Part shown: positions 11,176 to 43,370 of the stretch, piece after piece
How positions within the stretch are numbered: the stretch's first letter is position 1
How the letters are laid out: each line of letters opens with the position of its first letter
DNA from: a virus
Virus record (IMG/VR): IMGVR_UViG_3300036766_000833
Coordinates: 1 to 45,756 of that record
DNA length: 45,756 nt
Strand: one strand, 5' to 3'
Program-made: the position numbers and the translations under genes
Notes under the pieces: model-generated
Told to the model about the DNA's origin: nothing
Seen by the model: only the letters and a program-made list of their open reading frames with translations
Databases searched by the model: none

Positions 11176-11327
11176 CGCCCGGCCGGATCCTCCTCGTCGA
11201 GCGTTTCCTCTGGCTCGTCGGATTCGCTGCGATCGTGGTGGCCGTCGGCGCCTTCGACTGGCGGATCGGCCTCTTTACCGCCGGCCTCGTCCTCCTGGGC
11301 TCGACCATCGACTGGAAGCGGCCATGA
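11172..11327 (+). CDS. small membrane protein between terminase and portal
   Basis: 51 aa with two hydrophobic stretches (LLVERFLWLVGFAAIVVAVG and IGLFTAGLVLLG). ATGA overlaps at both ends. Small membrane proteins at this spot occur in many HK97-like phages; role unknown. Confidence 0.55.
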   Translation: MTPGRILLVERFLWLVGFAAIVVAVGAFDWRIGLFTAGLVLLGSTIDWKRP

Positions 11328-13963
11328 GCCTCATCCGCTCGCTCCTCTCGCCGCCCCAGCTCCGAGCGACGGGCTCGTATACGGTCGAGGATCTCTACGG
11401 CTGGCTCATGGCTGCGGGCGCCCCGCTCCTCAACCAGACATGGCCGGCGAACGAGGAGAAGGTCGAGGGCGATTTCGGGGGCCTTGTGCGGACCGCCTAC
11501 CAGGCGAACGGCGTCGTCTTCGCCTGCCTCATGACCCGCTTCCTCCTCTTCAGCCAGGCGCGGTTCCAGTTCCAGCAGCTCCGCGGTGGGGTGCCCGGCG
11601 ACCTCTTCGGGACGCCCGAGCTCCGCATCATCGAGCGGCCGGAGCCGGGCGAGACGACGGCCGATCTGCTCTCGGTCGCGATGCTCGACGCCGACCTCGC
11701 GGGCGACTGGTTCGGGGTCCGGCGGCCGGGCCGGATCAAGCGCCTGCGCCCGGACTGGACGGTCATCCTCGTGGGCTCGCCGAACCGTGGCATCGCCTAC
11801 CCGGCGTGGGATCCCGACGCCGAGGTGGGGGGCTTCTCGTACTCCCCGAACGGTCCGTATGGCGCGGGTGAGACGTGGTCGTTCGCACGGGAGGAGGTGG
11901 CCCACTGGGCGCCGATCCGCGACCCCCTCATGCGTTACCGGGGGATGCCCCTGCCGACGGCGGTCCTGCGCGAGATCCGGGGCGATTCTGCGATGACGAC
12001 GCACAAGGGCAAGTTCATGGAGCTCGCGGCGCCTCAGCCGCTCGATGCGCGGGTGCTAACCCCGGCCGGCTGGACAACGATGGGCTCGATGGAGATCGGC
12101 GACCGGGTCATCGGTCGCGATGGCCGGCCGCATGACGTGCTCGGCGTCTACCCGCAGGGTGAACGGGACATCTTCCGGGTGACATTCTCCGACGGCGCGG
12201 TGACCGAGTGCACGGCCGATCACCTGTGGGAAGTCGCCTCGGCCTACGATCGCGAGCGCGGCGTGACCCGGACACTGCCGCTCTCGGCGATCATGGCGGA
12301 TGGCCCGGCCTCTCGGAGCGGTGGGCTCCGATGGTCGGTCCCGTTGCCGGAGCCGATCGCCTTCGACGATCCTGGCCCGCTCGCGATGGAGCCCTATCTA
12401 CTCGGCGTCATGCTCGGGGACGGCAGTTTCCGCAATGGTGCCGTGACCTTCTCGACCGCCGACCCCGAAATCGTCGAATCGGTGCGGGCGCTCGTTCCCG
12501 TTGGCGTCGAGGTTATCCACCAGAAGGAATACAGCTACCATCTGCGCGGCGGGGCGCGTGGTGATGCATGGCGCGGCCGATCCGGGGCCGGTCTTCCGCG
12601 CGGTCAGCGCGCAGGGACCTATGTCCACCCGATGATCGCGCTCGCCAAATCGCTCGGGCTGTGGAACGTAATCGGTTACGAAAAGGCGGTCCCCGAGCCG
12701 TATCTGCGGGCGTCGGTCTTCGACCGCGAGGCGCTCCTGCAGGGGCTGATCGATACGGACGGCCACGTCGCGGGTTCCGTGGTCCGGTTCACGAACACGA
12801 GCGAGATCCTGGCCCGTCAGGTGGCCGAGCTGGCGCGGAGCCTCGGCGCTCGGGCATCGGTGAAGCCGGTGAAGGATCGTCCGGGCGAGCCGAACCGGCG
12901 CCCGCAATGGACCACGACGATCAATCGCCTGCCCGCTTGGCTCATGCCGTGTCGCCTCGAGCGGAAGGTCGCTGCCTATCGGGTCCCGTCCAGCCGTTCG
13001 CCGCGACATCGGTACATCGCGGTGATCGAGCCGGCTGGCCGGAAGTTCGCCCAGTGCATCTATCTCGATGGCCCGGAGCACCTGTACGTCACCGACGATT
13101 ACATCGTCACGCACAACACGCCCAACATGGTCGTCAAGTTCCCGCCGACGCTCACGAAGGCGAAGGCGCAGGAGACCATCGACGTCTTCGAGCAGGAGCA
13201 CCGCGGGGCGTACAACGCCTACCGGACGATGTACCTCCTCGGTGGAGCCGAAGCGCAGGTCGTCGGCAAGGATCTCCAGCAGCTCGACTTCAAGGTCGTC
13301 CAGGGTTCCGGCGAGACACGGATCGCCGCGGCGATGAACGTCCACCCGACGATCGTCGGGCTCTCCGAGGGGATGCAGGGCTCGGCGCTCAACGCCGGCA
13401 ACTTCAACGCGACCCGGCGATTGCAGGCCGACAAGATGCTGCGCCCGAGCTGGGGGAGCTTCGCCGGCTCACTCGAGATGATCGTCCCGCCGGTGCCCGG
13501 CAGCCGGCTCTGGTACGACGAGCGGAACATCCCGTTCCTCGCCGAGGACGTGAAGGATGCCGCCGAGGTCCTCTCCATCCAGACGCAGGCGATGCGGACG
13601 CTCGGCGACGGCGGCTGGGAGCACGACGCGGTCGTGGACGCGGTCACGTCGGGCGACCTGCGCCGCCTCTCCGGCCGGCACTCGGGCCTCGTGCCGGTCC
13701 AGCTCCAAGCCCCCGGAACGATGGCCTTCGCCGCCAAGCGGGACTTCTGGCCGGCCAGCGGCGACTGGACGGGCTCTCAGGTCGCGCGTGACGATGTCTT
13801 CGCGGCGGACCACCCGCTCGTCGCCGCGTTCCCGAGCCTCTTCGATCCGATCGCTCACCTCAATGGCGAGACGCCCCGGTCGTGGACGCCTCGCTCGACT
13901 TGGAAAGAGCCCACCTGGCAACTAGCGGCGCTCACGGCGCCACACCCCAATGGAGGGCAGTGA
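11324..13963 (+). CDS. portal protein interrupted by an intein
   Basis: 879 aa precursor; about 516 aa after splicing. N-extein (1-235/236): helical and beta portal region with FARE-EVAHWAPIRDPLMRY and MTTHKGKFMELA. C-extein (599-879): TPNMVVKFPPTLTKAKAQET, GAEAQVVGKDLQQLDFK and the HPTIVGLSEGMQGSALNAGN block of HK97-type portals. The joined site gives ...ELAA-TPNMVV, matching uninterrupted portals, where a Thr/Pro-Asn follows. The portal forms the dodecameric ring at the capsid vertex for packaging and exit. Start overlaps the previous stop. Confidence 0.93.
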   Translation: MSLIRSLLSPPQLRATGSYTVEDLYGWLMAAGAPLLNQTWPANEEKVEGDFGGLVRTAYQANGVVFACLMTRFLLFSQARFQFQQLRGGVPGDLFGTPELRIIERPEPGETTADLLSVAMLDADLAGDWFGVRRPGRIKRLRPDWTVILVGSPNRGIAYPAWDPDAEVGGFSYSPNGPYGAGETWSFAREEVAHWAPIRDPLMRYRGMPLPTAVLREIRGDSAMTTHKGKFMELAAPQPLDARVLTPAGWTTMGSMEIGDRVIGRDGRPHDVLGVYPQGERDIFRVTFSDGAVTECTADHLWEVASAYDRERGVTRTLPLSAIMADGPASRSGGLRWSVPLPEPIAFDDPGPLAMEPYLLGVMLGDGSFRNGAVTFSTADPEIVESVRALVPVGVEVIHQKEYSYHLRGGARGDAWRGRSGAGLPRGQRAGTYVHPMIALAKSLGLWNVIGYEKAVPEPYLRASVFDREALLQGLIDTDGHVAGSVVRFTNTSEILARQVAELARSLGARASVKPVKDRPGEPNRRPQWTTTINRLPAWLMPCRLERKVAAYRVPSSRSPRHRYIAVIEPAGRKFAQCIYLDGPEHLYVTDDYIVTHNTPNMVVKFPPTLTKAKAQETIDVFEQEHRGAYNAYRTMYLLGGAEAQVVGKDLQQLDFKVVQGSGETRIAAAMNVHPTIVGLSEGMQGSALNAGNFNATRRLQADKMLRPSWGSFAGSLEMIVPPVPGSRLWYDERNIPFLAEDVKDAAEVLSIQTQAMRTLGDGGWEHDAVVDAVTSGDLRRLSGRHSGLVPVQLQAPGTMAFAAKRDFWPASGDWTGSQVARDDVFAADHPLVAAFPSLFDPIAHLNGETPRSWTPRSTWKEPTWQLAALTAPHPNGGQ
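12029..13117 (+). mobile_element. class 3-type intein with LAGLIDADG endonuclease
   Basis: Precursor residues 236/237-598. There is no Cys/Ser/Thr at the first residue (Ala236 or Pro237), which excludes ordinary class 1 splicing. Block A is DARVLTPAGW; block B has T297-x-x-H300 with Trp302 (CTADHLWEV). Block F has Cys578 (KFAQCIYLDG); block G is DDYIVTHN with Thr596, His597 and Asn598, followed by Thr599 (+1). Trp302-Cys578-Thr596 is the WCT set of class 3 inteins. The homing endonuclease domain has LLGVMLGDGSF (359-369) and LLQGLIDTDGHV (471-482), both with their acidic residues, so it may still be mobile. Exact first residue is uncertain by one. Confidence 0.9.
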
Positions 13964-20866: not shown

Positions 20867-21116
20867 GCCTCACCCCGCCATACCCCGCTCGACCCCGCCG
20901 TGCCCTGCCTAGCCATGCCGCGTCTCGCCAAGCCGCTCCGCGGCCGGGCTTGCCAGACCGTTCCCGTGCCCCACCAGGGCACACCGCGCCAGGCCCTGCC
21001 TCGCCTCGCTCGACCACGCCGCGTCGGCTCCCGGCCCAGTCGCGCTTGGCCGCGCCATACCCCGCCTCGGCCTAGCTGGCCCAGCCCCGCCACGTCCGGT
21101 CTCACCACGTCCTGCC
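20867..21116 (-). repeat. pentanucleotide-periodic tract, 50 x 5 nt (GRYNN)
   Basis: Fills the whole gap between the head-closure stop (20861) and the stop of the leftward gene at 21119. Read on the minus strand, it divides into exactly fifty 5-nt steps. The core G-R-Y (mostly GGC, also GGT, GAC) recurs every 5 nt, the other two bases vary, and two one-base phase changes lie within the tract (near 21030 and 20958). It starts 2 nt behind the leftward stop codon, so it would be the 3' part of that transcript. Because 5 is not a multiple of 3, it is unlikely to be coding, though both strands have open frames through it. Confidence 0.8.
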
Positions 21117-21118
21117 GT

Positions 21119-21721
21119 CTAGATGAACTCGGTGACCGCAAAGCGGCCGTAGGTCGGCCGGAAGTCGCCGACGCCGATGAGACGGCCGGCCGAGCCGATG
21201 ATGTCCAGCAGCGTCGTGCGGTCGATGTACTCGGGGAGCAGCACCATCAGTTCGATGGTCGCTTCCCAGCCTTCGCGGAGCGCGGGCCGCTCGCGGGTAA
21301 TGGCCTGTCGCTGAATGAGGACGCGGCGCCGGTCGATGTACTCGGGCTCGGCGATGCCGAGGTCGGCCAGCTCAGTGATGGAGACGATGCCGGCCTTGAA
21401 CAGGTCCATGGCCGACTTGCGCGGAGAGCGCGGGTCCTGACGGAAGCGGGCCGCGCCGATGATCGATTGGCGCAGGTACTCGCCGGGCAGCCCGAGATGG
21501 CCGTTGTCGCAGCGGTAGACGTAGGACGCGAGGTCGTCCGTCTTCTTGGCCTTCGAGTTCTTCGCGGCTGCGGCCTTCGCCGCGACCGACTCGTTGGACC
21601 AACGATGGAACAGGATCGCGGCGCTGCCGCGAATGCTGACGCGAACCGTATATGGCTCGGTCGTGGAGACGGCTTCTTCGCCATCGTTGCTCACCGGATG
21701 GAGAGCGGTTGCGGTTGCCAT
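21119..21721 (-). CDS. leftward RAMP/Cas7-like protein of unknown role
   Basis: 200 aa, ATG at 21721 preceded by AGGAGG (21737-21732). The strand-first layout YTVRVSIRGSAAILFHRW (24-41), then GHLGLPGEYLRQSIIGAAR (74-92), SAMDLFKAGIVSI (103-115), RRRVLIQRQAITRERPALRE (131-150) and a Gly-rich end GSAGRLIGVGDFRPTYGRF (176-194) recalls the ferredoxin-like RAMP/Cas7 fold. There, a 'P-G-x-x-L-R-x-x-(I/L)' segment and a terminal G-rich loop contact RNA. No cas genes are nearby. The gene lies opposite to all neighbours, with its own promoter and leader, and is followed at once by the 5-nt periodic tract. The CDS is confident; the fold assignment is inference. Confidence 0.6.
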   Translation of the reverse strand: MATATALHPVSNDGEEAVSTTEPYTVRVSIRGSAAILFHRWSNESVAAKAAAAKNSKAKKTDDLASYVYRCDNGHLGLPGEYLRQSIIGAARFRQDPRSPRKSAMDLFKAGIVSITELADLGIAEPEYIDRRRVLIQRQAITRERPALREGWEATIELMVLLPEYIDRTTLLDIIGSAGRLIGVGDFRPTYGRFAVTEFI

Positions 21722-21724
21722 GGA

Positions 21725-21827
21725 GACAGAACCTCCTGTGGTACCCCGGTTAGCCCGGCCGTAAACGGGAAAGCCCCGAACGCCGGTTCTGTCGACGCCC
21801 GGGGCATGAAAAACCGGCGACAGAACC
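21725..21827 (-). promoter_or_regulatory. leader with exclusive hairpins that can hide the ribosome site
   Basis: Three related segments on the leftward transcript: GGTTCTGTCG (21827-21818), its complement CGACAGAACC (21794-21785), and GGTTCTGTC (21733-21725), which overlaps the AGGAGG ribosome site. The middle segment can pair with either outer one, not both; pairing with the last blocks translation. A GCCCCG/CGGGGC stem (21805-21800 with 21778-21773) encloses the middle segment and is a third option. This is the form of an RNA switch or autoregulatory site. Confidence 0.6.
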
Positions 21828-21839
21828 ACCGTTGGAATG

Positions 21840-21868
21840 ACGATAGCAGGCTCACCGTTGCCATGCAA
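21840..21868 (-). promoter_or_regulatory. sigma70-like promoter of the leftward unit
   Basis: On the minus strand TTGCAT (21868-21863), 17 bp, TATCGT (21845-21840). Predicted start about 21833, just ahead of the first switch segment, giving a leader of about 110 nt. Confidence 0.55.
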
Positions 21869-42663: not shown

Positions 42664-43370
42664 GCCGGGATGACGGGTTCGCGGTCATGGACGTGTCGAC
42701 GGGGTACGTCGACGACCCGAAGTGGCGGAAGCTCGCGCGATATGCCCCTGACCAGCTCGGCCCGGCATTCATCGCCTACACCGCGCTGTTGGCCGAGTCG
42801 TGGCGGGCAGGCCGGCGGCTGACGATCGACGACGCCTGGCCGGCTCTGATCCCCGTCTCGCAACCCGCAATCGATGCCCTCCGACACGTCGGACTGCTCG
42901 ATTCGCATGGCCTCGTGCAGTCGCGAGCATGGCGCGGGTGGTTCGGACCAGCGAAGGGACGTCGCGACGCGTTCCGCGAGCGATGGGCCCGTGCGAACGA
43001 GAAACGCCGCGCGGCTACAGAGCAGTTACCGCGCGGTAGCAGCGCGGTTACCGCGTCCCCCGAACCGTCCGAACCGTCCGAACCGTCCGAACCGTCCGAA
43101 CCGTCCGTAGATTCTAGAGATACTCCCCCTCCCCCCGCCGAGCGGGGGCGGCGGTCGAAGGGCACGAACCCTCGTTCCAACGGCACGGCACCACGCGATC
43201 AGGCGACGAACCCGAGGTCGACGGGAACGAGCGTGCGCCAGGTCCGTGCCGACCAGAAGCGGGGGCCGACGAAACTCGCGGAGGTGCTCCGCGCGGCAGC
43301 GACAGTCAGATCGCCATCGGATGACGACGAGGCGACGCGGTTCGACAGCCCGGCCGAGGCCCCGGCATGA
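42660..43370 (+). CDS. replisome organizer / replication initiator-like protein
   Basis: 236 aa. The N-terminal 120 residues (DVSTGYVDDPKWRKLARYAP, AYTALLAESWRAGRRLTIDD, AIDALRHVGLLDSHGLV) form a winged helix of the phage replication-initiator kind. There follows a run of five EPS triplets, then a disordered basic linker and a short helical end (TKLAEVLRAAATV), which could recruit a host helicase loader. The five triplets come from perfect 9-bp DNA repeats, so the origin may lie in this gene as in lambda O. Confidence 0.6.
   Translation: MSRDDGFAVMDVSTGYVDDPKWRKLARYAPDQLGPAFIAYTALLAESWRAGRRLTIDDAWPALIPVSQPAIDALRHVGLLDSHGLVQSRAWRGWFGPAKGRRDAFRERWARANEKRRAATEQLPRGSSAVTASPEPSEPSEPSEPSEPSVDSRDTPPPPAERGRRSKGTNPRSNGTAPRDQATNPRSTGTSVRQVRADQKRGPTKLAEVLRAAATVRSPSDDDEATRFDSPAEAPA
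43024..43059. promoter_or_regulatory. palindromes before the iterons
   Basis: ACCGCGCGGT (perfect 10-bp palindrome, from 43028) and CGCGGTTACCGCG (near-perfect, 43043-43055) sit immediately upstream of the iterons. They may help form or bind the origin complex. Confidence 0.35.
43062..43106 (+). repeat. five perfect 9-bp iterons (putative origin)
   Basis: GAACCGTCC repeated five times without interruption, each adding Glu-Pro-Ser to the host protein. A relatively A/T-rich spot (GTAGATTCTAGAGATACT, 43107-43124) follows. Iterons plus an easily melted stretch inside the initiator gene is the arrangement of lambdoid origins. Confidence 0.6.

Follow-up and report, generated by a model that had tools for sequence, protein, structure and literature searches.

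The closest described system to the locus analysed here is VIPR (Viral Interference Programmable Repeat), which a 2026 preprint presents as an ancestor-like CRISPR relative with a gapped DNA code (PMC13142463, bioRxiv 2026.04.26.720920). According to the main text of that preprint, a phage-encoded RAMP protein, Vipr, works with RNAs of 9-16 GGY/NN repeats carrying a 3' tail, the NN dinucleotides recognise DNA with a 1-nt skip, and competing phages are silenced. In Escherichia phage SUSP1 this mechanism was demonstrated experimentally, Vipr binding and silencing DNA through the NN code. The same text also describes the system of a Pseudomonas fulva prophage (type II), distinguishes seven types in all, reports staggered arrays as well as other VIPR loci among the targets, and presents an accessory gene, vap, as typical but not universal (PMC13142463).

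The window, that is the whole stretch of DNA analysed here (45,756 nucleotides), is a 45.8-kb IMG/VR virus record in which one unit lies on the minus strand against the plus-strand head-closure gene. We read this unit as a VIPR locus with a guide array and a switch leader, organised as a single-transcript antisense cassette, and give this full reading a probability of about 0.85. The first-pass annotation of the sequence had described a leftward unit opposed to the neck genes, and all four of its parts are indeed found on the minus strand. It had also stated that no system of such a make-up was known, which no longer stands since the preprint describes one (PMC13142463). Given that the unit belongs to VIPR, the finding is not categorically new. 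The features are as follows, in the order of the predicted leftward transcription.

21840-21868, minus strand: promoter-like sequence TTGCAT-17-TATCGT (TTGCAT at 21868-21863, 17-nt spacer, TATCGT at 21845-21840)
21722-21833, minus strand: leader RNA with an H-type pseudoknot and an exclusive pairing over the Shine-Dalgarno sequence, from covariation in seven homologous leaders
21818-21827, minus strand: strand A (GGTTCTGTCG), 5' side of helix P1, covarying with A'
21800-21816, minus strand: invariant core CGGTTTTTCATGCCCCG, comprising loop 1 and the 5' pseudoknot strand, identical in 7/7 leaders
21785-21794, minus strand: strand A' (CGACAGAACC), partner of A or A2, from three-strand covariation
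21773-21782, minus strand: 3' strand of the pseudoknot (CGTTCGGGGC), 97.1% of cells paired and 3/10 pairs changed on both sides
21725-21737, minus strand: Shine-Dalgarno AGGAGG overlapping strand A2 (GGTTCTGTC), from A':A2 covariation
21119-21721, minus strand: vipr gene, 200 aa, RAMP (Cas7-like), from PDB, PHROG, AlphaFold, Foldseek and VIA-align
20867-21116, minus strand: vrRNA-type guide array of 50 GGYNN units, from lag identity, decoding and the like arrays in relatives and in phage SUSP2

The 200-aa open reading frame (21721-21119) is a real gene, with 195 relatives in IMG/VR and 32 residues invariant across the 68 that were aligned, and the window copy retains these invariant residues. 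The family profile, run at E up to 10, matched a single PDB chain, the SUSP1 Vipr protein (36pp, E=5.4e-12), over a span that includes the GVGD(F/W)RPxxGRF loop; the glycine-rich loop of the window protein, GVGDFRPTYGRF, aligns with GVGDWRPRFGRF of SUSP1. The protein also matches PHROG 4652 (E=2e-19), while Pfam, NCBIfam and PADLOC do not recognise the clade. Its AlphaFold model (pLDDT 91.6) is closest among solved folds to type VII Cas7 and to Csm3 (Foldseek E=3e-7; VIA-align Z 11.8), with an rmsd of 3.9 over 160 residues at only 12-16% sequence identity. The fold comparison proposed in the first-pass annotation has thus been made, and its RAMP/Cas7-like assignment agrees with both the modelled fold and the homology to 36pp. 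On this homology we identify the 200-aa protein as Vipr.

The comparison with Cas7 and Csm3 of class 1 CRISPR-Cas (types III and VII) extends to the single RRM-type RAMP fold with its glycine-rich loop but not to the repeats, which are 5-nt GGY/NN units here whereas CRISPR has contiguous spacers. No cas model was matched by Vipr, by its neighbours or by two other window genes (ten proteins in all), and no CRISPR-like repeat-spacer array was seen in the window. With the VIPR loci of SUSP1 and the P. fulva prophage, as far as these are described in the main text of the preprint, the unit shares a homologous RAMP protein, same-strand GGY/NN arrays adjacent to the gene, NN positions that are hypervariable, phage encoding and a minimal locus. 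The differences are of several kinds. The window Vipr shares only 26% identity with the SUSP-type protein (in its SUSP2 copy), its guides form one continuous 50-unit array without tails where SUSP-type phages have separate RNAs of 9-16 units with pseudoknot tails, a covarying leader precedes vipr, there is no vap, and the cassette is antisense within a head operon. Regarding vap, no supported open reading frame lies beside vipr on the minus strand, the array directly following the vipr stop. In one relative (L204:1287-1810) a second open reading frame of roughly 180 aa stands between vipr and the GGYNN array and is a candidate vap gene. A cultured-phage record, Phage DSL-LC04 (OR003939; L214:3650-4585), carries a Vipr 59.5% identical to that of the window, annotated as a helix-turn-helix regulator, with 40 and 10 GGYNN units upstream.

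The sequence upstream of vipr was examined in an alignment of seven distinct leaders, the window's included. The promoter named in the first-pass annotation is present as a sequence and a TAnnnT (-10-like) element occurs 5-10 nt before the conserved leader start in 7/7 leaders, but the match to a sigma-70 promoter is weak (7/12 consensus bases) and the consensus scan lists no promoter there. The switchable leader of about 110 nt with exclusive pairings, claimed in the same annotation, agrees well with the alignment, as A:A' and A':A2 both covary. The A':A2 helix is paired in 98.4% of cells (62/63) with 5/9 pairs changed on both sides, and its covariation score of 0.624, against 0.182 in shuffles, was reached by no shuffle. 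The set formed by P1, the pseudoknot and P3 is 97.4% paired with 21 doubly changed cells, and here again no shuffle reached the observed score. Hence, the three-strand covariation over the seven leaders describes a mutually exclusive pairing pattern in which one helix covers the ribosome site, and vipr is under apparent riboswitch-like control. An ATG followed by CCCCG (Met-Pro-Arg) lies within the core (21808-21800) in 7/7 leaders and could be an upstream start codon; in three of the leaders (L001, L003 and L205) it shares the reading frame of vipr.

The leader might, on the other hand, be merely a stable pseudoknot or an attenuator in which the A2 copy is a by-product and nothing is switched. 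P1 and the pseudoknot alone covary well and the predicted folding energies favour neither state consistently, in keeping with this idea. However, A' and A2 pair in all but one of the 63 cells, and in the leader of L204, where A is AGTTTGGTT, A2 is GGTTTGGTC and A' is AGACCAAACC, A' tracks A2 even where A differs. Neither chance nor a recent duplication would remain matched over seven divergent sequences without selection, and we therefore regard the absence of a switch as unlikely.

The scan of IMG/VR with the core 17-mer gave seven stretches on six contigs, all preceding Vipr-family (PHROG 4652) genes, and the leader-bearing genes include three Viprs only 22-28% identical to that of the window. 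A covariance model search did not find the leader at the other Vipr loci among 149 sources. Six exact core matches in bacterial genomes all lacked the pairing strands and were taken as chance. When 17 window proteins were compared with the leader-bearing phages, matches were limited to late structural proteins of the record of L204 and of L003. Since these phages otherwise share little with the window phage, the leader seems to travel with vipr. It resembles pseudoknot riboswitches in its H-type pseudoknot, conserved loop and exclusive pairing over the Shine-Dalgarno sequence, but differs from them in matching no Rfam family and in being found only before vipr genes. Moreover, the main text of the preprint mentions no leader, riboswitch or autoregulation (PMC13142463). 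On balance we favour the view that VIPR has in this leader a dedicated cis-regulatory RNA of a new class, one that would switch Vipr translation and would have been passed between lineages 22-28% identical in largely unrelated phages. What it senses may be free Vipr itself, an autoregulation that would match the protein to the guide RNA. This is a natural idea given that the H-type pseudoknot plan recurs in the vrRNA tail of SUSP-type phages, but as an analogy it is put forward tentatively.

Downstream of the gene, the tract 21116-20867 is the only one of its kind in the window and ends 5 nt beyond the stop of the plus-strand head-closure gene. Identity at lags of 5, 10, 15, 20 and 25 is 0.48-0.50 within it, compared with a genome-wide lag-5 mean of 0.28 (sd 0.035). 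Read on the gene strand, an exact GGY is found in 33/50 units, the remaining 17/50 departing from it, and among the five-base units the two G positions are kept in 44/47 and 36/47 respectively. Only two 1-nt insertions, at the units starting at 21031 and 20965, interrupt the phase and divide the array into blocks of about 17, 13 and 19 units. The decoding score of 74.9 far exceeds that of 300 dinucleotide shuffles (mean 1.4, sd 2.3, maximum 14.6). The fifty 5-nt steps reaching up to the head-closure stop, as first annotated, are thus recovered as 50 units, although the GGY/NN code within the steps had been missed. A microsatellite was ruled out, as neighbouring units do not resemble each other and the autocorrelation stays level between lags 5 and 30, and so was a coding repeat, as the array begins after the vipr stop and is crossed by spurious frames only. 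At E up to 1 no Rfam family matched this region, and in 20 relatives none did at the gathering threshold, so that hammerhead-spaced arrays were not seen in these. As a positive control, the decoder was applied to SUSP2, whose vipr is identical to that of SUSP1 over the matched region, and found four arrays of 9-14 units with pseudoknot-like tails, which is the published layout. The window thus has tandem GGY/NN units beside the gene, 50 in number at 21116-20867, in a continuous array with two phase slips, and discrete arrays occur in relatives such as L013 and L064. No 3' tail was recognised after the continuous array of the window.

The association of tract and gene was followed in both directions. 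Starting from the gene, a decoded tract lies within 2.5 kb in 80/80 IMG/VR relatives (53-78% identical) and adjoins the gene upstream, downstream or on both sides in at least 78 of these 80, the tracts of L021 and L032 being further off; the homologue check suggested in the first-pass annotation therefore finds gene and periodic tract together over a diverse set of phages. Starting instead from the repeat, ten GGYNN units were used as a blind query against 2.9 million viral contigs and matched at least 120 stretches. The vipr profile found a relative in 73 of the 120 listed and in 85 of the 120 after iteration, many at E near 1e-8, and tract and gene are on one strand in 73/73 of the first-round matches. 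In the arrays of the relatives all 16 NN dinucleotides occur, each at 4-9%, so the NN positions are hypervariable while GGY, including the pyrimidine at position 3, is kept. Furthermore, two relatives with 99.7% identical genes (L067 and L069) have different guides. The arrays themselves vary in layout. Discrete arrays in L013, L050, L062 and L064 end in short shared AT-rich tails such as ATACTTTGTTGATTT after the final GG, two of the four arrays of L077 are followed by GC-rich hairpins, L044 has more than 100 units on either side of vipr, and very long arrays are found in L105 and in L128, the latter with 268 units in one decoded stretch.

Targets were sought in IMG/VR with exact 8-unit tiles read with a 1-nt skip. 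The tiles covering units 3-10, 21-28, 33-40 and 40-47 gave 11, 14, 34 and 0 matches respectively, none of which extends by more than one unit; these are only chance matches, and no natural target was found in IMG/VR with these tiles. A candidate in L265, where units 1-13 mostly match antisense to a structural-looking phage gene, is best explained by selection from many matches. In the window phage's own genome the best self-match reaches only 19/24 bases over 12 units. In a pooled 1-nt-skip test, the top matches all came from one guide of 18 units, G012, which forms a single array divergent from vipr in the record of L021 (L288:19056-19152). Its reading falls on a conserved stretch, KKTDNIESYVY, in the vipr genes of other phages, and the skipped base is the codon wobble position. 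Shuffled guides equalled its best score in 7/25 runs, so this reading is suggestive only; the core of the decoded site has no exact match in IMG/VR. As an anti-VIPR guide, G012 would be in line with the targeting of other VIPR loci reported in the preprint's main text (PMC13142463).

The lack of matches in the tile search would also be expected of a decayed VIPR with an intact gene and an array that has drifted until it guides nothing useful, as would the 17/50 units without exact GGY and the missing tail or terminator after the array. Drift of this kind is improbable, however, since only two phase slips have occurred in 250 nt, the GG positions are strongly kept and the gene retains the invariant residues of its family; moreover, equally loose units are present in the close relatives L001, L002 and L004, which makes looseness a trait of the clade. 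Still less probable is a RAMP protein that only coats or packages its own periodic RNA without targeting DNA. The fold and the 5-nt period would suit a filament on RNA, and the window guides have no target found for them, but NN is hypervariable while GGY is kept, as would be the case for guides, and in SUSP1 the homologous protein uses the NN code to bind and silence DNA (PMC13142463). The GG found every 5 nt on the RNA strand would also be accounted for if the tract were a row of two-layer G-quadruplexes, or if it served a host GG-binding protein as a sponge or regulatory RNA, its link to vipr being only positional. This is highly implausible, as the blind scan (120 listed stretches) joins the repeat, on one strand, to vipr-family genes that are themselves very divergent, and as the pyrimidine kept at position 3 is needed by neither idea.

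In the preferred reading of a VIPR guide array, the first-pass proposal that the protein coats or reads the periodic RNA without other cas genes holds for the RAMP fold, the linked tract and the absence of cas genes among the proteins scanned; the tract is better understood from the published system as a guide RNA that would store a DNA target in its NN positions rather than being merely coated. Its suggestion of defence, exclusion or control of host RNA is narrowed by the published work (main text of PMC13142463), which supports interference between phages at the level of DNA.

Building on the observed gene family, fold, repeat anatomy, same-strand linkage and leader pairings, we propose that the unit, as an antisense accessory VIPR cassette within a temperate tailed phage's head/neck operon, would function as follows. 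A leftward transcript would start near 21833 and carry the switch leader, vipr and the guide array as its 3' part, all presumably on one RNA. The leader would set the output of Vipr. With A' paired to A within the pseudoknot the ribosome site would be free, presumably the ON state, and with A' paired to A2 over the Shine-Dalgarno sequence the state would presumably be OFF, this direction of the switch being our assumption. By analogy with the published system (PMC13142463, main text), the array RNA would be covered by a row of Vipr subunits spaced 5 nt apart, each holding GGY with its glycine-rich loop and thumb and so presenting the NN to double-stranded DNA. The series of NN would then read the target with a 1-nt skip and, as in SUSP1, the complex would silence a competing phage or prophage by blocking transcription.

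The preprint's seven types may include the clade of the window (PMC13142463). As far as could be found in its main text, the switch leader, its place before distant Viprs and the long continuous array without tails are undescribed. The window represents an independent recovery of VIPR made from sequence only, and it adds a large clade of metagenomic-phage VIPR that Pfam, NCBIfam and PADLOC had missed, together with the continuous array layout and a first sign of possible control of vipr expression. A switch travelling with the gene makes the timing of VIPR activation by phages a testable question, and long tail-less arrays do the same for guide maturation.

The window further encodes a tyrosine integrase-type protein, the large terminase, portal, major head protein, tail terminator, tape measure and a RecE-like exonuclease. 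The integrase-type and structural genes point to a temperate tailed phage, probably a siphophage; nucleotide comparison with known phages gave no match. The cassette of L003 has the same place and orientation as that of the window, between the head-closure gene and the next neck gene, in the record of L204 it adjoins a homologous head-closure gene on the opposite strand, and in L203 it faces a major capsid-like gene, while in L002 it runs with the neck genes. The cassette thus mostly lies against late genes. Accessory genes that prophages express typically have a promoter of their own directed against late transcription, and by this analogy the cassette is likely to act in the lysogen, where it would oppose superinfecting or co-resident phages. 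Elsewhere in the window, in the portal gene (11324-13963), residues 467-519 match a LAGLIDADG homing endonuclease domain (Pfam PF14528 and PF05204) within an intein-like insert, and the portal domain is at residues 598-684. Finally, a perfect 9-nt tandem repeat, CCGAACCGT, is present in 5.3 copies at 43060-43107 and adjoins a 22-nt tandem repeat at 43007-43055, the whole (43007-43107) being possible replication or regulatory repeats.
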